Of a stretch of DNA of 64,000 bases, positions 13,815-59,000 are shown in pieces; position 1 is the first letter of the stretch; every line of letters begins with the position of its first letter. Source of the DNA: Siniperca chuatsi (Eukaryota; Chordata; Actinopteri; Centrarchiformes; Sinipercidae); the NCBI RefSeq assembly GCF_020085105.1, contig NC_058058.1, positions 5,367,675 to 5,431,674 of the forward strand. The letters are read 5' to 3'. The notes below the pieces were generated by a model. It searched no databases and was not told the origin of the DNA. It was given only the letters and a program-made list of their open reading frames with translations. Both the position numbers and the translations under genes were made by a program.

Positions 13815-16800
13815 GGGGAAAATAGGGATCAATGGGAATACCTCTTGAAAACAGGGCGAACAGGATGAAGATGTTAAAAATACGGAAAAGAGTTTAGCCA
13901 AATATCACTGGTGACTATGCAAAACAGACTAAGGAAAAAAAAGTGACTACTCTAAAAACAGACTTCCAAAAACAAGATGATCATCAAGACAGCCTGTGTC
14001 ACATGCTGCAGACAATATTAGTCTTAGTGCTTTTTAAAATAAAGAACACAATTCCAATAAACCCTTTTTCTGCCTGGTGCAAAGAAGGTGTTTATGCTGA
14101 AAAGAGGCACTTAGCTCCTTCATAGGAATAGCAGTATCCTAGATACTAGATGGAGACGAAGTGACATATCTCACCCTGATCACAGCATCTCTCTTGTTCT
14201 TGGCCTCTCCAATGCGAGCGTCTTTCTGAACCTGGGCTGTTCGAGCCTTCCCCAGTGAATGCAGATAATCCTGTGTACCAGAAAGAGACAGGAAAGTTAG
14301 ATGCACATTCTTCATTCAAGGCCGATTTAATCCAAGATGCAGAAAATTCCTTCTATTTTTGTGCTACCATGATGTTGCTATGGCAGCTCTTTCTGAGTGA
14401 GAAATGTGCACCTCGATGGCCTGTGTGATTCTTTTGTGTGCAGTTTTCCCCCCTTTTTATTTGAATTAGGAGTTAATCTATTTGTTACCCACTAAATACA
14501 CATCAAATCAAACTATATAATAAAAAAGTTACTACCCGGAAAATACTTGTTTGAAGATATGTGGATACCTGATCGTCATGAACATCTTTGAGTGTGTAGC
14601 TGACCACGCTGATGCCCATGTTGACCAGGTCAGAAGAAGCCACCTTAAAAACCTGCTCTGAGAACTTCTTTCGGTCCTTGTAGATCTCCTGTAAGATGAA
14701 GACGTTAGATAGGTTTTACATGTTCAGCCCTGTTAGAATCATCTGTGTTTAATGCAGGCGTCTCTGTGTGCCTTTACAGTTGAGAAGCAATGTGACATTA
14801 ACAAACCTTTAACATGAACCTCACTCTTTTAGTCAAATACTCACTGATCTTTGTTATGGAGTAAATCTGTCACGAACAGGGAAACATGGTTTCATTACTG
14901 ACTAGGGCTTTAAACCCTGAATTTAAACTCCAGGAAATCCAACACTGAAACTAACAACCTTCTTACCTCAACAGTCAGGTGGGCGATGATGGCCCGCTGG
15001 TGTCCCTCCAGCGTCTCCAAGGCGATGTGAGCAATCTCGGCCTCTGACTTCCCCATGAACATTTGGCAGGCTGCAGCCAGCATCTGTTTATTCTGACCCT
15101 GGATCTTCATCTGTACGAAACAGCAACTTCGTTTATTATTATTAAGACTACAGTGAAACACTGACATGATCGCTGGGTTCATTCCCCATGCGCACAATAA
15201 ATAGGAGTCCAGCAAAACAGCAGCTGGTGTTGTATGCAAACCAATACATGACGCTCTGATATTCTAAAACAAATCATATGAGATGAGAGATCTGTTGTCA
15301 TATGTGGCTGAAACTACATTTGGATGGGAATAGGGACTTACACTTGAATGCATACAAGTTGGTACTCATCCCTGATGCTGAGATTTTGACATTTTTGGGC
15401 TGCTTGATTCACTACATTAAATACATGCAAGGGTATGTATGTCTTTTTTGGTAAATGTCACACACTCAGAGATGTGGAGGAGCCATGATGGGCAACCTGC
15501 CTGAGTAGATACACAAACCTTCCAGCTACATCTAGATTATACAGTTCAGCAGTGTTTAGATGGCAACTGATGGATGACTCAAAGAAACTATTTGTCCATT
15601 CGTCTACACCTGTCCGCCTGAGCAAAACCTCCCCCTGCTTCACCTGTGAAGCAGCATGCTGTTTCCTCTGCAGTGAGGCACACTGACCTGGGCTATCCCG
15701 GTTACAGAGACCGGCACCCCGTGGCGGGTGTAGACTTTATCGCTCTTCACATTCAGAGTCAGAGTGTTCAGGGAGATCCTGGAGAGAGGCAGGGTAAGAC
15801 ATGTAAAGGAAAAGATGATTATTGATTGATTATCCACTGCTCTAATGGTATACATTAAAGTGTAGTCATTCCCTTGTACTCATACTGAGTTGCAAGCACT
15901 GAGTGCAGGATTTTACAGCCACAGGACCAAGGCTAACACTCAGACAAACAAAACACAAACAAAACCAAATCTGGTGCCATATGATGAACTGAACCTGCAG
16001 GCTATATATGATTAATTTGACAGGGAGACAGAAATCTAATGGCTCTTGAGAGGTTAATGTACAGCACAAACAACATTATTAGACATAATACAGATCATCA
16101 TTTTTATTTGGTGGATGGTCAGTGTTCTGAATCTGTGTCTACCAGCCATCCAGGCACTACAACTGCGAATTTGCTAACCATATTTATAGGATTTATTACC
16201 TTTTTATCAATATCCTTTAGTTTAAAGTCACCCTTTCCTTCCCGGTTTGGATTTATATTTTTTGCTGTCAGTTAAAAATGTCTCCCAAATGCCAACAACG
16301 TGAAATGTAAATGAAGGTGTTAGATGCAGCAACACCAGAAATTAAACTAAAGATCGGTACACAACAGTGGATAGCAGAAGATAAAAAAACCTTCACGTTT
16401 GCCTACCTCTGTATCTGCTGAATGCACGGAACGACGAACACTCGGCCTCCAGCTATCATCATTGGAGGAGAACGACAGAACCCTGGGAGAGATGAGAGAC
16501 CAAACAGAGCCTCAAATCAGAGAGCTTAGACCGAGGTTGAGTGATATGAACAAATTATTGCAAAATAATGTTTTTCTCATTTTTTGGTCTAAGAATACTT
16601 AAGAAAATTTACACCACAAAACGTTGGTAGCATGTTTCACTTCAGAATTGGATATTCAACCAAAAACTGGTTAAGAAGCATGGACAGTCATTTTTTATAA
16701 CACATGTTAGTGTCTAAATATTTTGAAATATTTGTAAATATTTGTATATTAGGTACATTTTGTCCACTTTGAATGAATGGAAACTGATGAATAACAACAA

Positions 16801-19021: not shown

Positions 19022-27037
<8,016 letters not shown>

Positions 27038-30125: not shown

Positions 30126-30570
30126 GCTGCTGAAACTGCATACATACTCGTAACACTTCATTCCTAAAACCTAATTTTGTGTTGTCTTTCAAATACAGGT
30201 TGTATAATACTGACAATCACTGAATATTACTGCGACCAGCTGAGCTAATAAACTGGACTTATCTATTAACCAGCAGGACTTGAGTCTGACTTACACATCT
30301 ACAGCTATGAAATGTAATTTCTCATTTTATTTATTTATAATTAAATTGAATTCAGTTTTGATGTTTTATTTGATCTTGATTTTATTTAATATTATTATTT
30401 TAATTTAAAATGTGGGAGGAAACCGAAGCACTCGGAGTAAACCCACACCAACACAGTGAGCACGCGTGTGCTTCTCACAGCAAGGAGGTCAAGGCCCAGA
30501 ACTGAACCCTCACCTTATTGCTGCGAGGCCACAGTGTTGAACACTGAGGTATCTGTGCGGCCCTGTGAGA

Positions 30571-30669
30571 CCTGAAGTCCTGCGTCACATCCAGCTTATC
30601 CTCTGTGCTACTAGTCGAACTGAGGCTAGTAGCGCAGAGGATAAGCTGGACATGAGGTGGGACTTCAGG
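30571..30669. repeat. Imperfect inverted repeat (44-nt arms)
   Basis: Arms 30571-30614 and 30626-30669 are reverse complements with about six mismatches around an 11-nt spacer. The core TCCAGCTTATCCTCTG pairs perfectly. It lies just downstream of the 3' end of gene copy A. Confidence 0.8.
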
Positions 30670-30880
30670 CCCCAATAGACCTTTTTCACAGCAGAGGTTT
30701 TGACTTGTCATAGCAGGAGCCAGCATGCACAATACCAGGACCCTGGAACTAGCTCAACTAAATGGAATTGAGTCGTTTTAAATTTTATCAATTATACTTG
30801 TGCTTTTCCTGCTGTGACAAGCCAAAATGTCTGCTGGGAAAAATGTCTGGTCCACCCACCCACCCTAAGACCGCCAATGA

Positions 30881-33685
30881 TTACTCTTTGCGGCCACATC
30901 TGAAGCAGGCAGAGAATGGCTTGGCCATGGTCTTGAAAACAGATCTGAAGATCGTGTAAGCGCAGCTCCTCTTTGGTGTCACTAGGTGCTCTTTTAGTGT
31001 CTCAGTTATACGTTTGTAAATCAATGCATCATGTGACAGCAGGCTCATCCGCAGCACCCCTGCGCTGCCTATCTTCTTGCACAGATCTTTGTGTACCGCC
31101 TTGGCTATCCGTTTAATATGGTGTCCACGTGGCTTGACAGCAATTTCACAGCCTGCGATGTCTGCCCACAGCATCTCTTTCAGTGTCATGATGGTGGTTT
31201 CGATATCATTATCGGACAGATTAATGGAATGATTTTTCAGAATCTGGTTAACCAGCCCTGACACCAGAATCAAGCAGTTCAGCTCATAGATTGAGTATGC
31301 TTTGGTCTCATAAGCAGCTTCATCAGCTCCACCACTGATAGCTGGCTCATCAGTGATAGAATCCGGTGCTGCTTCAAACGCAGATGGCTCATCGGTGATA
31401 GAATCCGGTGCTGCTTCAAACTCAAATGGCTCATCGGTGATAGAATCCGGTGCTGCTTCAAACTCAAATGGCTCATCGGTGATAGAATCCGGTGCTGCTT
31501 CAAACTCAGATGGCTCATCGGTAATAGAATCCGGTGCTGCTTCGAACTCAGATGGCTCATCGGTGATAGAATCCGGTGCTGCTTCAAACTCAGATGGCTC
31601 ATCGGTGATAGAATCCGGTGCTGCTTCAAACTCAGATGGCTCATCGGTAACAGAATCCGGTGCTGCTTCAAACACAGGTGGCTCATCGGTAACAGAATCC
31701 GGTGCTGCTTCAAACTCAGATGGCTCATCGGTAACAGAATCCGGTGCTGCTTCAAACTCAGATGGCTCATCGGTGATAGAATCCGGTGCTGCTTCAAACT
31801 CAGATGGCTCATCGGTAACAGAATCGGTGCTGCTTCAAACACAGGTGGCTCATCGGTAATAGAATCGGTGCTGCTTCAAACACAGGTGGCTCATCGGTAA
31901 TAGAATCGGTGCTGCTTCAAACTCAGATGGCTCATCGGTGATAGAATCCGGTGCTGCTTCAAACTCAGATGGCTCATCTGTGATAGAATCCGGTGCTGCT
32001 TCAAACTCAGATGGCTCATCGGTAACAGAATCCGGTGCTGCTTCAAACTCAGATGGCTCATCTGTGATAGAATCCGGTGCTGCTTCAAACACAGGTGGCT
32101 CATCGGTAACAGAATCCGGTGCTGCTTCAAACTCAGATGGCTCATCGGTGATAGAATCCGGTGCTGCTTCAAACTCAAGTGTCAAAGTGTCACTCTTCAG
32201 TACCAAGGGACTCTCTGTGAGTGCTGGCAGACTATCCACTGTGTTCTTAATCTGCGTCAGAACAACACTCGCGTGATCCCGGCTTCTCTCATGCTGTTGT
32301 GCCTGCTGGTTGAGCCAGTTCCACATCAGCTTTATAAACTTGTCCACTTCGGCCTGAACCTCGGCCTGAAACTGCTGCCTGTGTCCTTTGCCAGGTTGTA
32401 GATGGTGGGACACTACTTCAGTCAGCTGCTTAATGATGGTGTTTTGCTTTCCGCTGCAAATGTCATTGGCAATTTTTTGGTAGATGCACACCTCATCTGT
32501 GTCCTTTCTTATCTCCTCATCTTCCAGTGTTGGGATCATGTCCTCCACCAGGCTACCCACCTGGCTAATTAGATCGTCAGTATTTTGTTTAGTTGGTGGG
32601 AAGCAGCCAAGTTTGCTCCTCAGTTTTGCCACTAAGCTTAGGATTGACTCTTTAGCAAATCTTTGCACAAAGAATGCCTTGATTTTACTTCCCACCCTTT
32701 TCCAGCAGGACATTTTGCTAAATTTTGCTAGTTCTACCAATATAATATATTTAACAATCTTAGATGCTGCCTTGTCTGTATCCTGGGAGGTGCTGGACAC
32801 AATCAGGTCGCGTTCCTCATTTGAAATGTCACCATCATATTTGATGCAACTGATATTATTCGCCTGGTCCTTCAGGACCTTCTTCAAGGCTTTGGTGATT
32901 AGAATCTCTAAGCTTCTCCCAGAAGAATCCTTTTCTGGTTCATCCTCTTCCAGAGGAGTTATGGGGGTCTGGCTTGTCCCTCCAGTTTCACCCAGCTCTC
33001 TCGATTTGTTTTGCTCTGTTGCTGCTTCATCAGCTTCCATTTTTGGACTTTTCTGACCTATCTTGGACATGCATCTCATCTTAGCGGCGCATTTTTTAAG
33101 TATTTTCACCACATATCTTATCATTGCCTTTAGTCTGCCTGTGAAGGACTTGGAGGCCAGCAGTTCGCTTTCCTCGCTGCTGCTTCCGCTGCTTCCACAA
33201 CTTTTGGAGAGCTCGGCATTTACCCTCTCTGTTGCTTCTTTCACCAAGAGGTCTTTCATCTTCTGTGTGCTGGGGAAACAGATGTCCTCCTGAACACCCG
33301 TCGCCTCCTTAAATGTGTGTTTAATAGTGTCACCCAAAAACCTTTCAACTTCTTCTTCAGATATACTGACGTTCTTCTGTGACCCATCAGATCCAGAAGA
33401 GCATCTGGATGATCTGGGAGGACTTTGCGGCAAACGCAAGTCACTCACCTCTGTTAGGTTGTGTTTGAATGCCTCATAAATGTGTCTAGATACAGTGTTA
33501 ATTATATCCACACACATGTTCGTTATGATATTTTCTGTGGCCTTGTCAAGAGACCCGGATTCCAGCTTGGCCCACTGTGCGTTCGTCAGCTTCTTCAGGA
33601 ACTGTTGGACAAGTGGGCGAAGAGTGTCCGTTGTGGCCAGTGGAAGGTCCTGATCCATATTCTCTTGTCTATGTGTTGTATCCAT
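30881..33685 (-). CDS. Unrecognised intronless gene, copy A, with 14-residue acidic repeats; frame broken in the repeat array
   Basis: A continuous frame runs from Met at 33685 to a stop at 31850 (611 aa). A second frame in the same register (31675-30881, 264 aa) contains more repeats and a unique C-terminal domain ending RCGRKE. I do not recognise the family. The N-terminal ~490 residues are predicted soluble and helix-rich, with basic and Ser-rich patches (CGSSGSSSEESE) and no signal peptide or membrane span. The array follows, each unit like FEAAPDSITDEPSE, acidic and probably disordered. A C-terminal helical segment has WADIAGCEIAVKPRGHH. There is no intron. A TATATA box at 33789-33794 lies about 100 bp upstream of the ATG, supporting a real transcription unit. 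Three adjacent repeat units are 1 bp short, bringing in a stop codon before the frame recovers, so this copy is either truncated, a recent pseudogene, or mis-assembled in the array. Confidence 0.6.
31341..32176 (-). repeat. 42-bp minisatellite, array A, about 20 units
   Basis: Coding tandem repeat with a unit of 42 bp (14 codons). Variants differ mainly at two places: GTGATA/GTAACA/GTAATA (Ile or Val in the SITD/SVTD motif) and TCAGAT/ACAGGT/TCAAAT (SEFEA, PVFEA or FEFEA). The units at about 31820, 31861 and 31902 read GAATCGG instead of GAATCCGG and are 41 bp long. Because 42 is divisible by three, all open frames on both strands stay open through the array. Confidence 0.97.
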
Positions 33686-33779
33686 AGTATCGGCTTGTAT
33701 TGGTTTGCAGTCGTTGTGCTCGTCTCCTTGGAAGGATGTGTATGTGCTCTGAAAAATCTGAACTAAACTAACACTAGGA

Positions 33780-33800
33780 TTTGGGTCCTATATACAAGCT
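33780..33800 (-). promoter_or_regulatory. TATA box of gene copy A
   Basis: The minus strand reads TTGTATATAGGACCC, 95-109 bp upstream of the ATG at 33685. The same box is present upstream of copy B at about 37718-37723. Confidence 0.5.
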
Positions 33801-33837
33801 CTCAGACCAGATATTAGCCTACACATCAAAGGTATTT

Positions 33838-35337
33838 ACCTTTATCCTATTATACATTTAATAACTCATCCCATGCTTATCTTATTTTTTTTATACTTTA
33901 ATGTATGATATCTTATCATCTGTAACCTATTTTACTTGACATATTACTATCTTATACACTTCCTTAACTATTTTTACTTTTTATTTCTTATATGTATCAA
34001 ATGTATTAGTTATTTCTGTATGACTAAGTCACTGTAAATTTATTTTTCTGTCATAAGTTTAATTATTATATTGTTTTCATAATTTTAAGATGAAAAATTT
34101 CATAATTCAATTTCAATTTAAATTATTAACTACTAAATTCATCAATTTATAGTTATAATTTTAAAAAGAAATTCAAAATTCCCAATTTAATGTAACAGAT
34201 TTTTTTTGATAAATAATTATACAAAATTTCAATTTATTGTTAAATAATTAATAAATTATATCGAAAGTCACTTATTTTCAGGAAATGAGTTAATAAATTA
34301 GTTGTAAATATTAACTATTAATACTGTAAGAAGTTAAAGAATTTACTAATTACACTGATTGTAAAATGTCTGGCTTCATTAATTAAATAATAGAAAACAT
34401 CATGTAGAAGTACCTAAGACTGCTTCGGAAGAAAAGACGCTGCAGGTCTGAACTCTCTCGACACAGAAGCCCTCCACTGTGCACATCTGTTGGACGGGAG
34501 ACCACAATCTCGGCCGGGGTAAAGCTTCTGCCAGGCACATCCAGCTGGACATCCAGGAAGTCTGCTCAGAACGACATTCAGGACTGCTCCGAACTCAGGA
34601 CTTTTCCTGCCATTGGCCAGGACCTCTGCTAACCAGAGACTGTTGCTTTTCCCTGACTGTCATCTACGAATTTTTCCTAACCTCTCCCTAACTCCTAATG
34701 TGCAACTGAATTATTTACTGTCCCATAATTTCATAGACTTTTTTCATGTACTCTATTTGCACCCATATATGTAATTTCATAATACTCTGTCTTTACATAC
34801 CATATTTATTTTATATCATTACTACTTTTGCCATCCATTCTTTATATATCCATGCATACTTGTTTATATCCTATTCTATTTATATCCATTGTAACTTTTT
34901 ATAATTACTCATCTGTTTTACCTGTCTTCTTATTAATTCATTTAATTTACTCATTATCCTGCTTTAATTGTAATGAATAATTTTATCCATTATATGCTCA
35001 TTCATTCTCAATGAAATCAGGCCTAAGCCTAACCAATGTATGCAGAATGGTCATGAACAGGCCATATGACTGAGAAAAGGGACGGTACTAACCCAAAGTA
35101 CAGGTGAAAGTCATGCCATGAAAGAACAATGCAGGGATGCCAAATCAGGACGAGATAGCAACATATGCTTATGCTCGAAACGTACATAACATTGTCTAAC
35201 ACCATTTTGTTTTTAAACAGGTGATATGAAATTGTATTTAACTATTACTATAAATGATTATTTATTCATTGACTTGATTATTAAGTATTATATATGAATT
35301 GATATTACTGTAAATCTAAATAATGTTTATCTTATTA
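33838..35337. other. 1.5-kb AT-rich spacer between gene copies, origin unknown
   Basis: Copies A and B share upstream sequence up to 33837 / 37766 and then diverge abruptly. The spacer begins very AT-rich (33840-34400), has a GC-richer block (34420-34690), and abuts array B at 35338 in the middle of a repeat unit. No reading frame or terminal repeats could be established. It may be an insertion or the remnant of the original flank. Confidence 0.5.
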
Positions 35338-36107
35338 TGGCTCATCGGTGATAGAATCCGGTGCTGCTTCAAACTCAAATGGCTCATCGGTGATAGAATC
35401 GGTGCTGCTTCAAACTCAGATGGCTCATCGGTAATAGAATCCGGTGCTGCTTCAAACTCAGATGGCTCATCGGTGATAGAATCCGGTGCTGCTTCAAACT
35501 CAGATGGCTCATCGGTAACAGAATCCGGTGCTGCTTCAAACACAGGTGGCTCATCGGTGATAGAATCCGGTGCTGCTTCAAACTCAGATGGCTCATCTGT
35601 GATAGAATCCGGTGCTGCTTCAAACTCAGATGGCTCATCGGTAACAGAATCCGGTGCTGCTTCAAACACAGGTGGCTCATCGGTAATAGAATCCGGTGCT
35701 GCTTCAAACTCAGATGGCTCATCGGTAACAAAATCCGGTGCTGCTTCAAACTCAGATGGCTCATCGGTGATAGAATCCGGTGCTGCTTCAAACTCAGATG
35801 GCTCATCGGTAACAGAATCCGGTGCTGCTTCAAACTCAGATGGCTCATCGGTGATAGAATCCGGTGCTGCTTCAAACTCAGATGGCTCATCGGTAACAGA
35901 ATCCGGTGCTGCTTCAAACTCAGATGGCTCATCGGTAACAGAATCCGGTGCTGCTTCAAACTCAGATGGCTCATCGGTAATAGAATCCGGTGCTGCTTCA
36001 AACTCAGATGGCTCATCGGTAACAGAATCCGGTGCTGCTTCAAACTCAGATGGCTCATCGGTAATAGAATCCGGTGGCTCATCGGTGATAGAATTGCTTC
36101 AAACTCA
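35338..36107 (-). repeat. 42-bp minisatellite, array B, about 18 units
   Basis: Same unit family as array A but a different unit order and number. The left edge is cut within a unit at the junction with the AT-rich spacer. One 41-bp unit (GAATCGG) lies at about 35397-35403, and a partly deleted unit lies next to the unique region at 36062-36100. Confidence 0.97.
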
Positions 36108-37614
36108 AGTGTCAAAGTGTCACTCTTCAGTACCAAAGGACTCTCTGTGAGTGCTGGCAGACTATCCACTGTGTTCTTAATCTGCGTCAGAACAACACTC
36201 GCGTGATCCCGCTTCTCTCATGCTGTTGTGCCTGCTGGTTGAGCCAGTTCCACATCAGCTTTATAAACTTGTCCACTTCGGCCTGAACCTCGGCCTGAAA
36301 CTGCTGCCTGTGTCCTTTGCCAGGTTGTAGATGGTGGGACACTACTTCAGTCAGCTGCTTAATGATGGTGTTTTGCTTTCCGCTGGAAATGTCATTGGCA
36401 ATTTTTTGGTAGATGCACACCTCATCTGTGTCCTTTCTTATCTCCTCATCTTCCAGTGTTGGGATCATGTCCTCCACCAGGCTACCCACCTGGCTAATTA
36501 GATCGTCAGTATTTTGTTTAGTTGGTGGGAAGCAGCCAAGTTTGCTCCTCAGTTTTGCCACTAAGCTTAGGATTGACTCCTTAGCAAATCTTTGCACAAA
36601 GAATGCCTTGATTTTACTTCCCACCCTTTTCCAGCAGGACATTTTGCTAAATTTTGCTAGTTCTACCAATATAATATATTTAACAATCTTAGATGCTGCC
36701 TTGTCTGTATCCTGGGAGGTGCTGGACACAATCAGGTCGCGTTCCTCATTTGAAATGTCACCATCATATTTGATGCAACTGATATTATTCGCCTGGTCCT
36801 TCAGGACCTTCTTCAAGGCTTTGGTGATTAGAATCTCTAAGCTTCTCCCAGAAGAATCCTTTTCTGGTTCATCCTCTTCCAGAGGAGTTATGGGGGTCTG
36901 GCTTGTCCCTCCAGTTTCACCCAGCTCTCTCGATTTGTTTTGCTCTGTTGCTGCTTCATCAGCTTCCATTTTTGGACTTTTCTGACCTATCTTGGACATG
37001 CATCTCATCTTAGCGGCGCATTTTTTAAGTATTTTCACCACATATCTTATCATTGCCTTTAGTCTGCCTGTGAAGGACTTGGAGGCCAGCAGTTCGCTTT
37101 CCTCGCTGCTGCTTCCGCTGCTTCCACAACTTTTGGAGAGCTCGGCATTTACCCTCTCTGTTGCTTCTTTCACCAAGAGGTCTTTCATCTTGTGTGTGCT
37201 GGGGAAACAGATGTCCTCCTGAACACCCGTCGCCTCCTTAAATGTGTGTTTAATAGTGTCACCCAAAAACCTTTCGACTTCTTCCTCGGATATACTGACG
37301 TTCTTCTGTGACCCATCAGATCCAGAAGAGCATCTGGATGATCTGGGAGGACTTTGCGGCAAACGCAAGTCACTCACCTCTGTTAGGTTGTGTTTGAATG
37401 CCTCATAAATGTATCTAGATACAGTGTTAATTATATCCACACACATGTTCGTTATGATATTTTCTGTGGCCTTGTCAAGAGACCCGGATTCCAGCTTGGC
37501 CCACTGTGCGTTCGTCAGCTTCTTCAGGAACTGTTGGACAAGTGGGCGAAGAGTGTCCGTTGTGGCCAGTGGAAGGTCCTGATCCATATTCTCTTGTCTA
37601 TGTGTTGTATCCAT
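35338..37614 (-). pseudogene. Unrecognised intronless gene, copy B, truncated tandem duplicate
   Basis: Nearly identical to copy A; I count about ten differences over ~1.7 kb of unique sequence including the 5' flank. The frame starts at 37614 and stops at 36187 (475 aa), because a G present in copy A at 32281-32282 (CCCGGCTT) is missing at 36211 (CCCGCTT), just before the repeat array. Downstream the array continues, with further damage: a shortened unit at 36062-36100 and a 41-bp unit at about 35399. The sequence then breaks off at 35338, so the unique C-terminal domain of copy A is absent. The promoter and TATA box are intact, so transcription is possible; the product, if any, would be the N-terminal domain with a short out-of-frame tail. 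Confidence 0.65.
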
Positions 37615-37767
37615 AGTATCGGCTTGTATTGGTTTGCAGTCGTTGTGCTCGTCTCCTTGGAAGGATGTGTATGTGCTCTGAAAAATCTGAACTAAACTAA
37701 CACTAGGATTTGAGTCCTATATACAAGCTCTCAGACCAGATATTAGCCTACACATCAAAGGTATTTG

Positions 37768-40700
37768 AATGACATCATGACATTCCAGCGACTTCAAAGT
37801 CAAAGTAAGAAGAATTTAAAAGAAAACATTCAAAACTAAATGACGTTCGCTAAATCCCGCCCCCAAACACCGACTGTCCAATCGTAGCTTAGCAACCGTA
37901 TCCAGGCATGGCAGACACGCACACACACAAACACACACACACAAAGTGCGTGGAATAACAACAACTGAAAATGGGAAAATAATGAATACAGATAAATACA
38001 TAAATAATAATTTACTGAGTTTTGAAATCAAAAATAGGGAAAACAAAACGAAATAGGCTATCATTTCGTAGAACATATCATTTATACAAAATGAGGGATG
38101 ACCTACACACACACACACACACACACAAAAAAAGTTGCAGTGTGTAGTTTTCACTTTTTGTATTTGTATTTAAACTGCAAGTCTACAATGTATGATTATG
38201 ATTATCCCATCTTACTTATCTGTATATATTTTAATATCATTATTCTTCTTTTTACGTATGTTTCACATGCTTTGGCAATGTTAACATCTGTTTCCCATGC
38301 CAATAAAGCCCAATTGAATTGAACTGATGTTTTGAATGCTTTCTTTACCAGGATACAAGTTCATTAAAGAATTAATGAAAATCTTATGGTCAACCAAAAA
38401 CAGCCTGCTTTGACTTAGTGTTAACTATTTTTGACTTTTGAATGTGTAAATTCCCATAAAACACATAAGTTTTATGGAATGTAAAGAATACATTCATTAA
38501 TAAATGTTGCAAGTATAATATCAGTGTATAATTTAATGGTTTACATATTTAACTTTTAACAACAATTTGGCAATTAAACAATTATTATCGGTTTTCCTGC
38601 AAATGGAAAAATGAAGACTGTCTCCAGGAAAACAATACAAATTGACGCCAGTTGGCTGAGACAAAAAAAAAAAAAAAAAAATCTGACTTTGGATAGCGTC
38701 TGCACCACAAACGGAGAAGTAGGCCGACAGGTTAATACAGTCTGCGGTCTGAACCGACAGCATACAGGGCTGGGAAAGATTAAGGCCCTCGGACAGCGCT
38801 AATATTAGTTAACTGACCCACTTGAACTCGTCTACTTTATCAAAAAGGAGAAGTAAGCTATAACTCAGAACTGATGATACAATAATTTTGGGATTAGTAA
38901 CTAAGCAGCACAAGCTCATGTGGCTAGAGGAGGATTCCCACTTCAAACTGCGGTCTGCTTGACCGGATAAACTAACATGGGATTGGAGATATCGTGCATG
39001 TGTAATGGTGGCCTCGGGTTAAACTGCAGAGCGGCTGCTTGTGGCTCCAAGCCAGAACTGACGATTTTTTTTTTTTTTTTTCCGAAGCTTCCCGAGCACA
39101 GCCGATCTCAAATGGTCCACAAACCCGAGATCAACCGAAACTCTTATTCAGTTACTACCGATCCGGCCCCATTGAAGTGTGTTGTTGTCGGGTTGGGGGT
39201 GGTGGGGTGGAAGAGATTCATGAAATAAAGAAAAAAAAAAAAAGGCGATTTCCTGAAACCATCACTCCTGAGCCCCTCCCAGTCCAGTGATTTCGGATTC
39301 GAAGCTTGACAAAGGTAATTACCATCATCCAATTATAATTGTATATTACAGCAATCTTTTTCTCAGTATTTTGTTCAAACAGGGAGGTAGTGGGTTAAAT
39401 TCTGCAGTTTTTCCTTTGCTGTTTTGACTATTCGCTTGTGTGGAGCGGTCCCACACGGCAGTAACGGCTGATTTAGGGCGTGTAACCAACAGCAACACAG
39501 CGAAGGCGTGCAGGATGGCAGGAATTACTGTCATCTTCGCAAAAGAATAAAACAAGTAACGGTTTCATATAACAGAGGGGTAAACTTTCTGAAATGCCCG
39601 AGAAAAACGATGAAATCCACAGTATTTAGACAAGAATCCAAGCGTTGCTCAGACGGGACATTATTTAATAAGGTATTTGTGCACCGAATGGCCTCCTTTC
39701 TCCTTCTAATTTTGGGTTAATTTAGTAAATTCACTAATCTTTCTGCTGATGTCTCGGACACTTCTAAGATTAACCCCGTATTTACAAGCTGATGCAAATA
39801 ATCGGATAGTAACATGAGCAATATTTTATGTATGTTGCCCAGGCTGTGGTGCATTAGAATTCCTTGTATGCGGGATATACCCGTCTGAATTAACAGATAT
39901 TTTCTGGTCCATCCCGGGGGAAATGGTTACGCAATGTAGCGCTGCTGCACACATTAGAGCTGACTAAGTATTTGTCACATAGAAGAGTCATTTACAGAGT
40001 TATAGTTCCTGATATCTTATGAATTATAGGCTCCCCGGTGCTATGGCAAGTGCCCAAACCATCACCCAAATGATGTCTGTGAAAGAATGAAACAGTAGAG
40101 ACAGAGAGAGAATGCATGCTTTTCCCCAACACATAAAAGATGACTCTATTATGCACAGTCTCTGATATTAGAGTGGCTGGCAGTGGTGATAAATCCAACC
40201 CCAACCTCTCTTCAGTCGTTATCATTCTTCCCCTCTCATTTCCTCCATCTTCCACCCGGACATCCCCGTAACGGGACAGCCTCATTCATGCCGGTCGTGA
40301 CACACCCTTGGCTGCACAAGCAGCTGCTCCTGGTAGGGCTGCTGTAAAGCGTGAGGAGGGGGAGTGGGGGTGCAGGTGGGGGTGCAGACGAGGAAAGTGC
40401 AGGGGAAAAGCAGGTCGAGAGAGGGGACCCACTTGCATTGATCTCAGTATCAGATTAAAGGTTCTAGTATGAAATTGACTATTTTCTTGTTAAAAACGGT
40501 TAAATAGACACATGGGAGAACCTCTGTATTTGCATTTTGAACATCAGGACTCAACACTCTAAAATGCATGCAAATGGAATTAGCAGTAAGCAGCAATGGT
40601 AGAGAGAGCTCTTGAAATAATAACAGTAGAGGAGAAATGATCACATTAGCTTTGATGAGGTGATATTTAATATTAGGGCAATGCTTGCCCAATATATCAG

Positions 40701-44084: not shown

Positions 44085-47000
44085 ATGAAAGTAATCAGCG
44101 CTTTGGTGCTTTGCGCCCTGTTCTGCACTGGTAAGCACAAACATAATGAGTCACTTGGGAGCGGGTTTAGATAAATGAATGGCTGAAACAGACTTCCTGC
44201 AAAACTGAATTTGTTTCAACTGAATGATTAGCATAGATTCTATGAAAACCACACCAAAGGAAGCTTTTTTTAGTCAAGTTATTTTATGATCTATTTAATT
44301 TCTACTCATTTGCTTTCCTTCATTTTCTTATGAGAAAGACTGTATTTACATCTGGTCTATTTTTAGCTGTCATTATCGGAGGCATTTACATTTCAAATGG
44401 TTTCATACTTTTTGGGGAAGTGGTTTTTTAGTAAGAACAAAGGAACTCTGACTTATTTAGAGATCTTTGTACAAATCAGCAGACAACAAAAAAAAGTGTA
44501 TTTTAAAATAAACTCCTCTCTGTTTTTCTTTCACAGTTGTGTCAGCATCTTTGAAAGGTAAAACTGCATGCTTGTTTGGATTGCAATACATGACTAAGAA
44601 TGCTTTTTGAGAATTAACAGATTGTATGCATGAGAAAAGATGAGTGATAGTGTGATCAGTTTCAAATCTGGGCAGAGAAAGTAAATAAGAAATAGCAGGT
44701 TGTCTATAATATCTAATAAAACATCTTGATTATTTCGACTAGTCAAAGAGGAACACAGGACAGCTTTCTTTGGCGAGGACGTTCACATCGATGTCCCGCC
44801 TGGGAACGTTAGTGAGGTTGTGTTCAAACCCAGGACCAATCGCTCCTCTGAGGTGGTTCTGCTGCAAGCAGGCCAGGTGGTGAATTCACGGGGCCGTATC
44901 AACTCTCGGAGCCACCTTGTGCTGGAGGACGTGCAGGAGGAGGACGAGGGGTTGTACGTCATCAAGAACACCAACAACCCCAACACAGCCAAGCACTTCA
45001 TCCTCATTGTCAGGGGTAAGCTGTCTGCTGCACTCTTATCCAGAGGTGGGGAGAGCGTTAGAAAGGGTTCCCCTGACTAAAGTCTTAGTTCTGGGAGTGA
45101 ATAGTGGTACCTCTTTAGAAAACTGGTTTGGTGGGGGAGAAACAACTTGAACAAAGACTTTTATGTCTTTTCTGGAGAAATACAGAAAATGAACCTATAC
45201 AGATTCTTTGTCGTCCCACAATACAACTGTGGGAGGAATTACAAACCTGTTTTATAATCTTTTTTTTTTTTTTGATGTACTAGATAAACAGTGGCCCTAA
45301 TCTTTGTATTAGAAAATACAGAAACATGCTCGTCAGCAAGCTAGCTTGATTCCTTATCAACCGCTAGAAAACGTGCTGTATCAGGGCATACATAAGACAA
45401 ACACAGGTAAAAACATAGGACTATAAGAATGCTATTAGCACCAACAATTTGCTATGTCACAAAATACCATGTATAATCAAACAAATCGTATGTTGTATAA
45501 GTTCACCAAGCTTTATTTGTATAACACAAAATTTCAAAGATTAGGTAGATATAATAGAAGATTCTGTTAAGGTTTGGAGATTTCGCGTTAAAGTTAAGGA
45601 ATCACACAACCAGCCATAAAACTATTTCACCATTGATACTCTGCTGAACAACACAGTTGATTTGTACATAATGACTTCCACCACATCATGACAAAGCCCG
45701 GTCACCAAGATCCTGCTTTGACCTTTATTTCCTCTGGTCTTGTTTGTCAGACTGCGCTTTGGAGCAAGTGGTGAAGTATGGAGAATCTTACTACATCCAT
45801 CTCAACCACATCGAAGGCCCCATCACCCTGGAGTTCAGGTACGGTCAGTGAAAGTGCGACAGAAAAAAAGGATTCACAAATCTGGATTCAACATGGAGTC
45901 TATCACAGATTGTTTAGCTCTTCTGGCCTAAATTTAAAAGCCAACCAGGGACGGGGGCTGCAAAATTAGCTTCAGCTAGACGCCCTATATACATTACATC
46001 TGTTGTGTTGCTTCTCCGATGTTTATCTGTGTGGTCCCTGTTAAATAAACTCAAAAATAAATAAATAAATAGGACAGGGAAATGCTGCTGCTCTGCTAGC
46101 TGTTGGTTCAAACCTCTGACTCTACCCCAATCAGTGATGTCACAACAGGTGCAATTAGAGGTAAAACACCTGCTGCAACATCACTGATTGGGTTGAACAA
46201 GATTTACACAGATTGCTCAAATGTTAATTTAGGTAACATCTGTTCTCTCTATTTGATTTTTAACCATGTTAAGGCCCAGTCTGGTTCAGGCCAATCAGAC
46301 TGAGACACAGCACACAACAGAGCCTCCACCCGTGGTGCTGTACAACCAGACGGCAGTGTCGGCAGAAGAGTATGTGGGACGCCTCAGTGTGTCGGAGAAA
46401 CGGGTGACGCTGCACTCTGTCAGGATGACCGACGAGGGGAGCTTTACAGTGCTGGACCGTGAGGGTAAAGTCAGGAGGAGGAACTGTCTGAATGTCAGAG
46501 GTGAGGAGAGATCTGTGCTTTGCTGCATCCTCTCAGCTTTAATTGACCTATCAATCTCACGTGCATGTGTCATTATTCTGTACATGCTGGTGTTATGTGC
46601 ATCTGAGTGTATCTGATTTAAGTGCAGTGCTGATGTCTGCGCAGAGAATAATTGCTGAGAAATGTTACAAGCCAGGTCTTTGATATAAGCCTACATTGTT
46701 TTCACAAGGTGTTAGTTGTCTATACCTTTATTATAAAAGTACCAACTATGTTAGGCTTTTTGTGTTTCACATATTGCAAATTTTCATCTTGGCCTTGAGT
46801 CACTGTCTGCATTATCTCATTCCTGAGTGTATTACCTAATGCCTTAATCTCAGAAAAGGTCTTTATTTAATGTATTTAAAATGAGGTTAAACCTGCCTGC
46901 AGGGGTACTTGGTCTGCAGCAGTAAAGAATAGGATGTAGATAAAAATATATCAAGAACACATTTACTTTAATGAAGGTTAGGGAACAAAATAAATTAACT

Positions 47001-50000
47001 GATACAATGGCTTCTCTATGCTAAGAAAGAACACTTGGCTTTAAACAAGACTGAGCTAGTGACTCTTTGAGTCTGTTCTGTGGCACAGCGGTGGATTGAG
47101 CTAAATGCTAATATTAGCATGCTAACATGCTCACAATGGCAATGCTGATGTTTAGCAGGTAATGTTTACCATTTACGATTTTTGTTTTAATTAACATTAC
47201 CACGTCACACAAAATACAGCAGGAATATGAATTAGTATTGCAGATGATTTTTGGTCATAAATGAAAAACGTTTTGACGTGATGATGGTGCTGGATGAAAA
47301 GTAAAAGGATCACTAAAGTTAATAATTCATCCTTTGGATTACATGAATGATTCATCCTTTGGGTTACATGAATGTCTTTACCAAATATCATGTCAGTCCA
47401 TCTAATAGTTGTCGATACATGTCACTCAAAACCAAAAATGTCAAGCAGCTGGTGGCGCTAGTGGAAAGGTCAGGGAATAAACAAAGTCATTAGGATTCAT
47501 CCTCTGGGGAGCGTGGATGTCTGTACAAAACTTTGTGCCAATCCATCAAGTAGTGGACTAAAGTGATGGACTGACTGGTCAACGAACATTACCATGCCGC
47601 TAGCATGGCTAAAAATTATATCATGTACATCTCCTGACTATCGATGTATCTGCAAGGTGTTATTAGATATATAGGGTGGCAGTGCAATTGTATTGCGTTT
47701 TTTAGCTGTTTATGCTATTACTGCTAAAAGTGAACAACTAGCATCATTAAGACGGTGTAGTCCCTCATTCGTCCAGGAGTGTTCTATCGTAGAAAAGGTT
47801 TCAGTCGTAGTCATCTGGACACTGTTTTCAGAATCAAGACGTTTGGCTCCCATCCGGAAGTCACAATCTGAGAATGACTTCTGGATGGGAGCCAAACGCC
47901 TTGATTCTGAAAACAGTGTCCAGATGACTACGACTGAAACCTTTTCTACAACTAGCATCATTAGCTATTAGCTGTTCACTGCCACACTCCAAAAGGCTTA
48001 AATCAAATCAAACCCTAGAAATGTGTCTACATTAGCATATACACATTGCTAGGCTAGCTATTCATGCACGCTGTACATCTGTTTATGTTTCTCCCTTTGC
48101 TTTTCCACAGAGCACCAGAACTTCATGCACCTTTCCTATGGAGAAAACCTGAAAATTAAACTCTACGTGCACCATTCCAATGTTAACATTGTCTACAGGC
48201 GCAAATCAGACAATCAGGACCAGGTCATCCTGGACCAGGGGGTTCTGGTGACACAGCTGGACCCTCTGCTAGAGGGTAGGCTGACTGTGGAGGGATCAGA
48301 GCTCATCATGAAGAAGGTCCATGTGGCCGACACGGGTGTCTTCAAAGTGACAGATCTGGCTGGGTTTCCTGTGGCTCATGTCTACATAGAGGCAGACGGT
48401 AAGAGAAAAATACACATTTAAATGGTCAACATTTACAGTATGTATTTAGCAACATGCATTCTACATCTCCTGAAACAGTGCTCTGACTGCATGACCATAT
48501 GTTTTCAGACCTGTAACCTACCAAACTTTGAGAAACTGCTAGGCTACCTAAACCATAATGTTGCGCCAGTCAGAGTAAAACAACTGTAAAACATGGTATA
48601 AAGTTTATATACAAGGAGGCTGGCACATCCTGTGTGTGTGTTTACCAACCAAAGCTCATGTGCAAAAATTCAGAGCCTTTCTGAAGCAAATCCATCGATT
48701 TAGCATTGCACTCCCATAACATTGTCGGACTCATGATGCACAGTATAGAAAAAGAATATAAATCAATGCAGCAGAACCAGAGATATCGTCTTTTTTATTC
48801 CACACATTCTTCTTCCTTGTCAAAACATAGCACCTAACTTACCCACAGTGCAACTGAAACGCTGACAGTTTGGTCAGAGGTTCAAGTGTGTAATACTAGT
48901 AGCAGCTAATGTAGCCTCAAGCCGCTAGTCTCAAGTAGAGATGAGGAGCGGGCTACAGAGGTCTGGTAAGCTCACTTCTTTCTAACTCCACACCCCCAGA
49001 TATTTTTCATTTTCAAACTTATAGTCTTCAGCACCCACTGACGCTGACTCGAGTGACATCACTTGAGGCAAATTATCAGATTTAGTGCAGCTCCCTCTGG
49101 AGCCACAAAAGGCTTTATATAACTTTTTCACATATGCAGTAGGACTCCCCAAGACCTGTAAACAGACTTTGATGTGTAAAATTGGTCGAGTTCCCCATTA
49201 ACAGCTATTGGCAATTACTTTATACAATATTACAGTATATTGCTTTATGGTATTGCCTATTTTATGGAGCGATTTGAACTTTGCAACTGAACTGTTTGTG
49301 TCAAAGGGTAGTCATAAATGGAAATAATGAAACTGTGGCATGATATCAATAGCATATTTAAGGACGCGCAACACCATGATAACAGTGACTTAGACAATGG
49401 AAACAAATGAGATTGCCATGATTTAACTGATGACCTTTCATTTAGATATCCTAAGCTGTACAGGGGAAGAGATTTAATCTTTAACTAGATAACGACCAAC
49501 ATTTTAATGCAAGTTCATTAAAACAAGATTCAGTTTTAACAAGAAACTGAGATGAAAGATGAGTAGCTACACAGCAAAGTCAGTTTGAAACAACATTTCT
49601 GCAGTCACAGAAGACTTATTTTTCTCTGTGGTTGTTTTTGTTGTCTTCCCTCAGCCTATAAACTGCCTCCCCTGACTGTAGCCATCCTCTCCCTGCTGTG
49701 CCTGATCGCTCTCATGCTGCTGGTGTGCTTGCTGTCCTGTCTCTATAAAATGCATAAGAGGAACGAGAAGAGCAAGAAGCTGATGCTCATTGCTCAGCAG
49801 GCTGGCAAGGGAGACGGCGAGGCTTTCAGACAGGTAACACCCACCTAGTGCATTATCATTCTTCATTTCTGTGTGATGGAGGAATATTGTAGGGTCACTG
49901 CGATAGGAATAGGAAAAGGCTCGGAACGGTGGGCCTGTAGGCAAAATGAGTAGCGCATGTCATGTGGTAAGAGTTAGGTGTGTGTTTGTGTGTGTTGGCT

Positions 50001-56000: not shown

Positions 56001-59000
56001 ACTGGAAGAACAGTCACTATAAATATGTGCTAATATCACATTTTGTAATGATTACTGAATAATATACAATAAATGTTAAATCAGCAGGTCATACTCCCCC
56101 GTATATCTCTCACTCACTGTATGTGTCTGTGTGTACAGGTATTGTTTGGGTGTGTGTTTGTGTATCCTTGTGTATTCATGTATATGCTTACAAAACAAAA
56201 TGTGTGCAAATGCTCATAATGTGCCTTTAAATTTTCATGTGTGTATGGGAACTTATAACTTGTGTTTGTGTATTGACCGTGGAGGTTGAGATGACAGCAG
56301 TTGCCCTTGATGTCGGTCATTCTGACACGTTATGGATTTCCTCATAGATCTGAGAACACAGACATGTCGGAGAGGATATCCGCAACCTTTTGGGACTTAA
56401 CCCAATAGGCCGACATGAAACGCAAATCAATCATACCTCTCCACATTACTCTTTCTCCCTCCCCTGAGTCCCTCTATCTCCATGTCTCGCTACCTCGCTG
56501 TTTTTTCATCCTACATATTTTCTTCCATCTATTTTACTTTCCATCTACCTCTCCATTGGTGTCCCTGCCTGTTTTCTCTGTATATCTTTATCATTTGTCT
56601 CGCTCCATTTCTCTCTTACTTTTCTTTTCACTCCTTCTCTCCTTTCACTTTAAGTCTCTTGTGTCTCACTATTTTGCGTTTGTCTTCTCACTCTCTGTGT
56701 CTCAATTTCCACTCACTTTCTCATCTCTTTTGTACCTTCTCTCCCTCATGTCTCTCTCTGACCAAAAGATGATCCACTATGGTGCTTCCTGTTAATACAG
56801 AAGTTGTTTTCATGCAAAAGACCCATGCTATTACTTTTACTTCTTAACTATTTTTAGTCAACATAATGTACAGTATCTTTTTGACAGGCAGGATGTAGGC
56901 AGCTAGCCTTTAATAGGTGTTTTTTGTGTGGTATAGATGGATATTAAAAATGTAATATCAGGTTTCATTTTGGAACTATTTCTGGGGACAAACCATATGT
57001 TCATTCAGTAATTTACCGATTACACATCACAAAACACAGACCGTTTCTGCTAGTTCACATCAACACATTATTTTTACATTATATTTCTTGTCATATTTAA
57101 CCCCTACAAAAAACTGCAAGATTTATCTCCGTGTGATATTAGAACAGTGTACAACCCCCTCATAATCAAAACGGGCCAGTACAACCCCCAAATATAACAT
57201 CATAATGATGAAAATGATAAAATATGTGGTTGGTTTTCTCGATTCAGTGTAATTCAATAATTATCACAGAATAATAGCACAACTAACAATCAAATGGCTA
57301 AAGATTTGTTGAGGAAGTAATAAATATTACATTATTATATTATATTATAATATTATTATTTTACTAATACTGGAACAACAATTTGACAACTGCACTAGTT
57401 GGAATATGTAGAGCATGTTGTTTTGGTATGTCTCTTCCCCTTAAAATTAATGCGAAACAGCATTTAAAAGCCTATTTGTGGAGATCTCAACCCCCCAAAT
57501 ATTCAACCCATAAAGTGGTCTCTATTCACTCCCATTTTTCTTCCGACTTGTTCTACCTCTTTCTCAACATATCCATCTTGGTCTTCCCTCTCCTCCTTTC
57601 CCACTTTTACTCTTCAAACCTAGTGCATCTTGCCTCCATCTACCTTCTCTCATGCTGTCTTTCTTGCAGTTCAGTGGAACTGAAAGTTTACAGCCCCTTT
57701 GGCTCTGTTTCCTCTCAACCTCCAGCCCCACCATGAAGACAAATAAAACAGCTTGTCTCTCAGTCATGTCACACAAGCTTCCTCTTGAATATCTTATATG
57801 TGTATTTAAGAGCTTTCTGTGCAGTTACATGTGCCTTGTGTGTGTTTATGCCCTCTCTAGCAGAGTTTCTGTATTTCTGATGACTAGTTTGCAAAAGCTC
57901 AGCTGCTGGGACATTACATAGTTGTGGCCACATTTTGACATGTATGTGTGTGTGTGTGTGTTTGTTTGTGTGTGTGTGTGGGGGGGGTCTGCAGGTCGTC
58001 CATGAGGCTTACACCAGGTTCGCTGAGGAATCTCTGATGCAGTCTGTGTGTGATAAGACCTCGGAGAGCACAGAGGTCACAATCAAGGTCAGTGGTGGAA
58101 CCGAGAAGCACAAATATAATTACATTAAAATACGTTGTAGAAAAGGTTTCAGTCTGAGAACTCAGAAATTTAGGAGTAGCTTAAATTTCTGAGTTCTCAG
58201 ACCATTTTCACAATTGAGAATGACTTCCGGGTGGGAGCCGAAACGTCTTGATTCTGAAAACAGTGTCCAGATGACTACGACTGAAACCTTTTCTACGATG
58301 GAACACTCCTGGACGAATGAGGGACTACACTGTATTAAAATACGTTATCAACATGTTGTAAGAAGTATGTGATTAAAAAAATATAACTGATTGCGTTTCA
58401 CTTTGACACAGATCAGTCAACAACTCAAGCTGTATCTATTCATCACTGTATAAGAGAGTTTGGTCTTGAAATAAAAATCAGGCTAATGGGTCAACAAAAC
58501 AAGGGTTTTAACAGCAGGGTTTTTGATAAGATACATGCTACAAGAATCATTACAGCAACAATACCTGAGAGTCAAGTCTTAATCTTGTTGACATTTTTGT
58601 TGTCTCCATGTAACAAGAAATATAGTAGTGGTGGCTGCATGGGAGTAGAAGGTAAATCTATAAATATGTACCTAGTAATATGTACATAAATTATTCATGT
58701 TGTTTTTTCATTGACCTCAATTTTTACCACTTCCCTTTCCTTCCCTTCCTCCATCCTACACCACCTCCCTCCATCTTGCCCACTCTGTTGGGGGAATCCG
58801 TTTTGTACTTGTCTCGCCCCATCCCCATCTTTTTTCTTGTGCTTCCCCTTAATTTCCGCCTCCTTTTTGTACTGGTTTCTTTTTCTTTCTGCTCCCCTTT
58901 TGTTTTATTATCGTCTTCTTTATACCTCATCTACTCTCCTCCTCTTCTTCATTTCCTTCTATTTTGTATTTTCTTTCCTTCTTGTCCTTGCCTTTTGTTA

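Follow-up and report, generated by a model that had tools for sequence, protein, structure and literature searches.

Fish genes with a product dominated by an amplified short coding unit are known, the codfish antifreeze glycoprotein genes among them. In the Prdm9 zinc-finger array, as presented in the part of the published account used here (PMC3890296), a unit that is a multiple of three lies in an open frame and changes fast in copy number and order. For the Atlantic salmon major histocompatibility complex (MHC) class IA region, Table 1 of an earlier study gives TCF19, UNKNOWN, TUBB and FLOT1 in a row, and the authors call the UNKNOWN gene possibly unique to teleosts in the section used here (PMC1971071). 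Here, we examined 64,000 nucleotides of Siniperca chuatsi (C17:5367675-5431674, hereafter the window, in a genome of 718,788,923 bases and 65 contigs), in which two copies of an intronless gene with a probably coding 42-bp minisatellite lie on the minus strand. This gene shares with the codfish genes the amplified short unit and would share with Prdm9 the features just named. It differs from Prdm9 in that its unit is an acidic segment of 14 residues without a known fold and in that its paralogues show the one-unit state. Unlike the codfish genes, which the cited part of the literature describes as de novo (PMC8622921), it is a member of an older family and its amplified unit is internal.

We propose that the window gene is a family member whose unit was amplified and which then underwent a partial tandem duplication, with its frame kept, the breaks in the assembled frames being mostly of an error type and the product a putative scaffold; we give this explanation as a whole a probability of roughly 0.64. 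From a one-unit ancestor, the unit would have been amplified in frame to roughly 20 copies in the window lineage. A tandem duplication of an internal 2.4-kb segment, which starts 152 bp 5' of the ATG and reaches almost as far as the array's 3' end, would then have yielded copy 2, with the original upstream DNA, the N-terminal part and the array but no C-terminal domain, and copy 1, with only the core promoter, followed by the N-terminal part, the array, the C-terminal domain and the 3' region. The 1.5-kb spacer would part the two copies.

The intronless family, the array and the duplication

The N-terminal 500 amino acids, searched against the fish's own genome, gave 24 rows at E up to 1, which we grouped into 14 loci: window copies 1 and 2, five units at C17:7.21-7.227 Mb, three loci on C18, one on C20, two on C15 and one on C1. 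The family thus counted, with one N-terminal query in one genome, has at least 14 loci. Two of the 24 rows are weak (E 0.0013 and 0.17); their loci, L016 and L017, are both backed by tblastn with other members. According to alignment A1, the open reading frames (ORFs) and tblastn, family members carry related N- and C-terminal segments in one exon, window copy 2 being without the C-terminal segment. Frames are open as assembled in the cluster paralogue U4 (~681 codons) and in L012 (~611), L013 (~640) and L014 (~835), while L015, L017 and L018 are broken or partial. The window protein is 65% identical to the cluster in the N-terminal part and 71% in the C-terminal part (alignment A1), and a 7-row tree, in which the L014 branch is long, groups the window copies with the cluster gene with a support of 100/100. 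By these sequence comparisons, the window gene is a member of an intronless family and not a lone gene. The family is apparently undescribed: in literature searches, to which this negative is limited, no paper named the gene, the possible salmon counterpart aside.

The cluster (C17:7,209,874-7,227,564; L009, L010 and L011) lies 1.8 Mb from the window genes and comprises five head-to-tail units of 3690, 3687, 3679, 3686 and, for the last, 2949 bp, with 99.6-99.9% mutual identity; its genes are fully open in one unit of the five. By eye, it is flanked by an NFATC-like ORF (L019 2409-3473) and a P4-ATPase-like ORF (L020 891-1265). At L016:4367-5491 (C18:4.854 Mb), the middle of the gene is absent and the frame is still open over ~375 codons; the ORFs on either side look arylsulfatase-like and dimethylglycine-dehydrogenase-like by eye.

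The initial annotation had described two same-strand copies starting 3929 bp apart, some 150 bp of common 5' flank with a TATA box, around ten differences over ~1.7 kb and arrays of ~20 and ~18 units, and alignment bears this description out. Copy 1 starts at 33685 and copy 2 at 37614, a register offset of 3929 bp, and the common block (31426-33837 in copy 1, 35337-37766 in copy 2) is 97.5% identical over 2432 columns, array included. The common 5' flank measures 152 bp, with TATATA at both copies, and over the unique sequence (~1660 bp) the copies are separated by 9 substitutions and 1 single-base indel. With U4 as the outgroup, copy 1 accounts for 5 of the substitutions and copy 2 for 4; coding differences amount to 5 silent and 3 replacement changes. 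Three silent differences lie within 13 bp, and gene conversion was rejected as their source because, by the outgroup, copy 1 acquired two of these changes and copy 2 the third. The arrays have 20.0 and 17.6 copies (period 42, match 94%) of a unit encoding about FEAAPDS(I/V)TDEPSE, and an FE variant pairs the last array units of copy 1 with those of copy 2 by eye.

In each of the five cluster genes, one FEAAPDSITDEP segment occupies the position of the array, the U3 version being short by one base. Tandem Repeats Finder detected no 42-bp array in the cluster loci or in L012, L013, L014 and L018, the last of which has an unrelated two-copy 44-bp repeat outside the gene relic. An ancestral gene with one FEAAPDSITDEP unit would be the most economical start, and the array most likely expanded in the window lineage, its loss in the cluster lineage being the less economical alternative. 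Since the cluster copies have a single unit, the repeat would be a young amplification; since both window copies carry the array, its growth would predate their duplication.

The limits of similarity to the cluster reveal the extent of this duplication. Upstream cluster DNA matches the upstream DNA of copy 2, without a break as far as 37914 and patchily from there up to 38646, but matches copy 1 only from 33843 on; 3' cluster DNA matches copy 1 (31383-30349), whereas the match to copy 2 ends at 35338. Because of these limits, the original gene would have spanned the region between the upstream DNA now at copy 2 and the C-terminal domain now in copy 1, both included. The copy 2 array abuts unrelated A+T-rich DNA at 35338/35337, which leaves this copy without a C-terminal domain. 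The 1.5-kb spacer had no match elsewhere in the window or among the loci L003-L020 (L001 and L002 are the window site itself). Judged by these limits, the duplication is partial: the ancestral upstream region is found only at copy 2, and the C-terminal domain and 3' region only at copy 1. The recent tandem duplication claimed by the initial annotation thus stands, but not as a duplication of the whole gene. Its single exon stands as well, its TATA-type core promoter recurs in U4, and of its young, fast-evolving gene, the fast evolution and the youth of the array and duplication hold, while a gene standing alone does not, given the family. It had also named a lack of homologues with open frames as a finding that would speak against it; such homologues exist (U4, L012, L013 and L014), so that this half of the objection falls away.

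Reading frame, constraint and rival explanations

The unique coding parts have remained free of stops and mostly in phase after parting from the cluster gene, and residues have been replaced at about the silent rate. Copy 1 and U4 differ at 288 of 1476 and 57 of 435 coding sites (345/1911 in total), compared with 45/282 in the 5' flank and 87/473 in the 3' flank (132/755 jointly; flank versus coding p 0.78). The aligned coding parts hold no stop in either sequence, whereas random substitution from the two starts would be expected to give 10.7 and 10.6, and 0 of 20,000 simulations from each start had zero stops. Among coding gap runs, 6 of 8 have a length divisible by three, and the remaining pair (16 and 26), which lie near each other, adds up to 42, against 2 of 17 flank gap runs divisible by three (one-sided Fisher p 3.6e-3 with the 16+26 pair counted against, 2.8e-4 without the pair); for the flanks, both the rate and the gap counts are approximate because part of the 3' flank is misaligned over a 24-bp array. 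Nonsynonymous (dN) and synonymous (dS) divergence are 0.231 and 0.250 in the N-terminal part (dN/dS 0.93) and 0.151 and 0.118 in the C-terminal part (dN/dS 1.27). Segments of the N-terminal part range from 0.55 to 2.04, with a peak at residues 210-300 that the alignment may inflate. Between L012 and L013, dN/dS is 0.58 and 10 of 12 gap runs are multiples of three. A ratio of about 1 with a kept frame, in this comparison of two sequences, reflects either weak constraint on most residues or a mixture with positive selection.

As assembled, copy 1 is open over 611 amino acids, with a stop in the array within a run of three successive 41-bp units; its three single-base losses jointly restore the phase, so that an ORF from 31675 covers the C-terminal part. 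Copy 2 is open over 475 amino acids as assembled because of a 1-bp deletion 5' of its array. A check of the coding minisatellite indicated that the 42-bp units extend the N-terminal frame and that four 41-bp units and a damaged start interrupt it as assembled. The five cluster units display 9 substitution columns, two triplets making up 6 of them, and as many as 11 small indels, which mostly sit in short runs and of which 10 involve a single base; from this excess of indels we infer consensus error to be likelier than natural divergence. The same GCACCGGATTC base is absent from three copy 1 units, one copy 2 unit and one cluster unit. The single-base frame breaks are thus probably, for the most part, consensus errors of near-identical repeats.

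Several points weigh against our explanation. A dN/dS near 1 fits weak constraint equally well, the array alone is weak as coding evidence because other frames across it are open too, and the misaligned part of the 3' flank enters the flank comparisons. Moreover, the three adjacent 41-bp units could be genuine, unequal exchange having spread them, a true shared lesion possibly underlies the A-deletion at alignment column 1589, present in 4 of 5 cluster units, the 25-bp shortfall that opens the copy 2 array is not error-like, and the case rests on the sequence of one assembly. In another explanation, both copies are pseudogenes whose frames were closed before the C-terminal domain by true single-base deletions, the family surviving via other members. 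Neither window copy is one open frame as assembled, copy 2 has lost the C-terminal domain and copy 1 the distal promoter, and the cluster, with one unit of five open throughout and a single-base deletion common to four, would fit as well. We consider it unlikely, given the zero stops in the aligned unique coding parts since the cluster split and the mostly in-phase gaps. All five single-base deletions of the window (copy 1 units 7-9, copy 2 unit 17 and one before the copy 2 array) hit CCGG, and the CCGG base lost in the window copies is also absent from one cluster unit. The 5 silent versus 3 replacement differences between the copies likewise argue against decay (p 0.013, or 0.11 if the three clustered silent changes are one event).

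The pair itself could be a false duplication of the assembly, with two alleles of one gene set side by side. A copy divergence of 0.54% is within the range of ordinary heterozygosity, and the array lengths differ as they would between alleles; we nevertheless find this very improbable, because the block ends abruptly against unrelated DNA and lacks homologous flanks, one side being truncated inside the array, and there is no N in the window. The same sharp edges would suit a mobile-element gene copying itself, with the pair as a transposition product, as would an imperfect 14-bp direct repeat seen by eye to flank the spacer (ATAATAAGATAAAC / ATAATAGGATAAAG, 12/14). Against this stand the head-to-tail arrangement of the cluster copies together with their upstream and 3' regions, the count of 14 loci from one query and the lack of transposase, integrase and reverse-transcriptase families among the Pfam rows of the window and paralogue pieces scanned, so that we rate transposition as slightly less probable still.

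Features, promoter and predicted protein

Table 1. Positions of the gene copies and associated features in the window.
Feature	Position	Strand	Details
Ancestral upstream region	37767..38646	-	Only at copy 2; inverted CCAAT (ATTGG) and GC box (GGGCGG)
Copy 2 core promoter and 5' leader	37615..37766	-	TATATA 37723-37718
Copy 2 N-terminal coding region	36104..37614	-	Frame broken by 1-bp deletion near 36211 (GCCGGG -> GCGGG)
Copy 2 42-bp array	35338..36103	-	~18 units; damaged first stretch 59 bp; unit 17 of 41 bp; no C-terminal domain after it
A+T-rich spacer	33844..35336	.	1.5 kb, at duplication junction
Copy 1 core promoter and 5' leader	33686..33837	-	TATATA 33794-33789; without ancestral distal upstream region
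Copy 1 N-terminal coding region	32174..33685	-	~504 amino acids, no frame break; low-confidence helical prediction
Copy 1 42-bp array	31343..32173	-	20 units of 14 acidic-rich residues; units 7-9 (31921-31799) of 41 bp
C-terminal domain	30881..31345	-	Single occurrence; low-confidence helical prediction, basic tail, stop
3' region	30349..30880	-	Common to cluster paralogues; first poly(A) signals ~480 nt past stop
Hairpin in 3' region	30571..30669	-	99 nt; also in cluster copies

U4 and copy 2 have in common TATATA, a block round the likely start site and the CCAAT and GC boxes, so their ancestor probably had a functional promoter. Copy 1, the sole window copy with a C-terminal domain, has the core promoter only. 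A block, GGTTGCTAAGCTAYGATTGGACA, at 37875-37897 (-) is common to the copy 2 and U4 upstream regions; we take it to resemble an RFX X-box next to an inverted CCAAT box. The long-stem hairpin of the 3' region (30571-30669, minus strand) has, for the stretch 30560-30680, a minimum free energy of -82.4 kcal/mol (z -12.9); its U4 equivalent (L010:9410-9620; -100.5, z -12.6) adjoins a 24-bp tandem repeat resembling one arm. The hairpin may represent a palindromic element or give rise to double-stranded RNA; Rfam gave no match in the window. Its 8/99 differences against 79/374 in the flank (p 0.002) are not relied on because part of the compared flank is misaligned.

The Pfam curated cut-off was reached by none of three window pieces and seven paralogue pieces, the lowest E value being 0.0011 (PF01401 with L013, at 18.1 bits where the cut-off is 23). 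Searches of the PDB returned nothing significant with single sequences (best E 0.13 and 0.83) and no row up to E 10 with family profile A1. The initial annotation had likewise been unable to assign the domains. A pattern search gave no match in viral contigs and 20 matches in prokaryote contigs, none of which was confirmed. Foldseek with the low-confidence N-terminal model listed 136 matches at E up to 10 and 0 at 0.001 and was not used; nor do we rely on internal protein repeats, the best of which reached 5.3 standard deviations against residue shuffles among many segment pairs.

Single-sequence models of the N-terminal 503 and C-terminal 154 amino acids (mean predicted local distance difference test, pLDDT, 46.8 and 51.7) are almost all helix outside unstructured stretches, in keeping, at this low confidence, with the helix-rich protein first described. 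In the array unit checked, 5 of 14 residues are acidic and 0 of 14 basic; the C-terminal domain of copy 1 has 23 basic versus 15 acidic residues, and in U4, L012, L013 and L014 basic residues outnumber acidic ones among the last 40. Very tentatively, the protein may be a helical scaffold or adaptor with a basic C-terminal tail beyond an acidic disordered spacer, the length of which would vary by 14-residue steps. The low confidence of the structure models counts against this part of our explanation, and because they are also single-sequence models, the scaffold role is a guess.

Neighbourhood and implications

Neighbouring sequences include a flotillin-1 exon within 14913-15263 and tubulin exons within 25368-27034, and the window gene is like the salmon UNKNOWN gene in lying beside tubulin and flotillin-1 exons, a likeness by gene order alone as given in the consulted part of that study (PMC1971071). 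The salmon gene corresponds to the expressed sequence tag DW569240, an accession given in the text, and was compared by position only. The salmon order is not fully matched, as TCF19 was not found in the window by a PHD-like pattern scan and reading by eye. At 44730-49845 (+), exon-like open frames suggest by eye a small multi-exon membrane protein with an immunoglobulin (Ig) domain, and no Pfam match at E 0.001 was found in the four pieces scanned. This Ig-like locus at 44.7-49.8 kb could equally be the counterpart of the salmon UNKNOWN gene. In tilapia, a virus-resistance region includes flot1a, tcf19l and pvrl2l, according to the portion of the report cited here (PMC12774591). Elsewhere in the window, a ~160-bp palindromic element (self-match 93%) lies at 47747-47949, with a related copy 10 kb off at 58208-58338, possibly a miniature transposon.

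One could speculate that the intronless family, with one locus by FLOT1/TUBB in a possible MHC region, is under conflict-type positive selection and tunes the distance between body and tail through an in-frame minisatellite grown from one unit, the length of which would change faster than the rest of the gene; we regard this extension as rather improbable.

Frame breaks in near-identical assembled repeats permit no verdict of gene death without reads. The one-unit and ~20-unit states of a coding repeat in one genome offer a before-and-after picture of its growth, and the direction of a partial tandem duplication can be read from the paralogues. Lastly, a fish family without a Pfam match has kept its frame while replacements accumulate about as fast as silent changes; conflict genes are known to show such a pattern, and so are weakly constrained genes.

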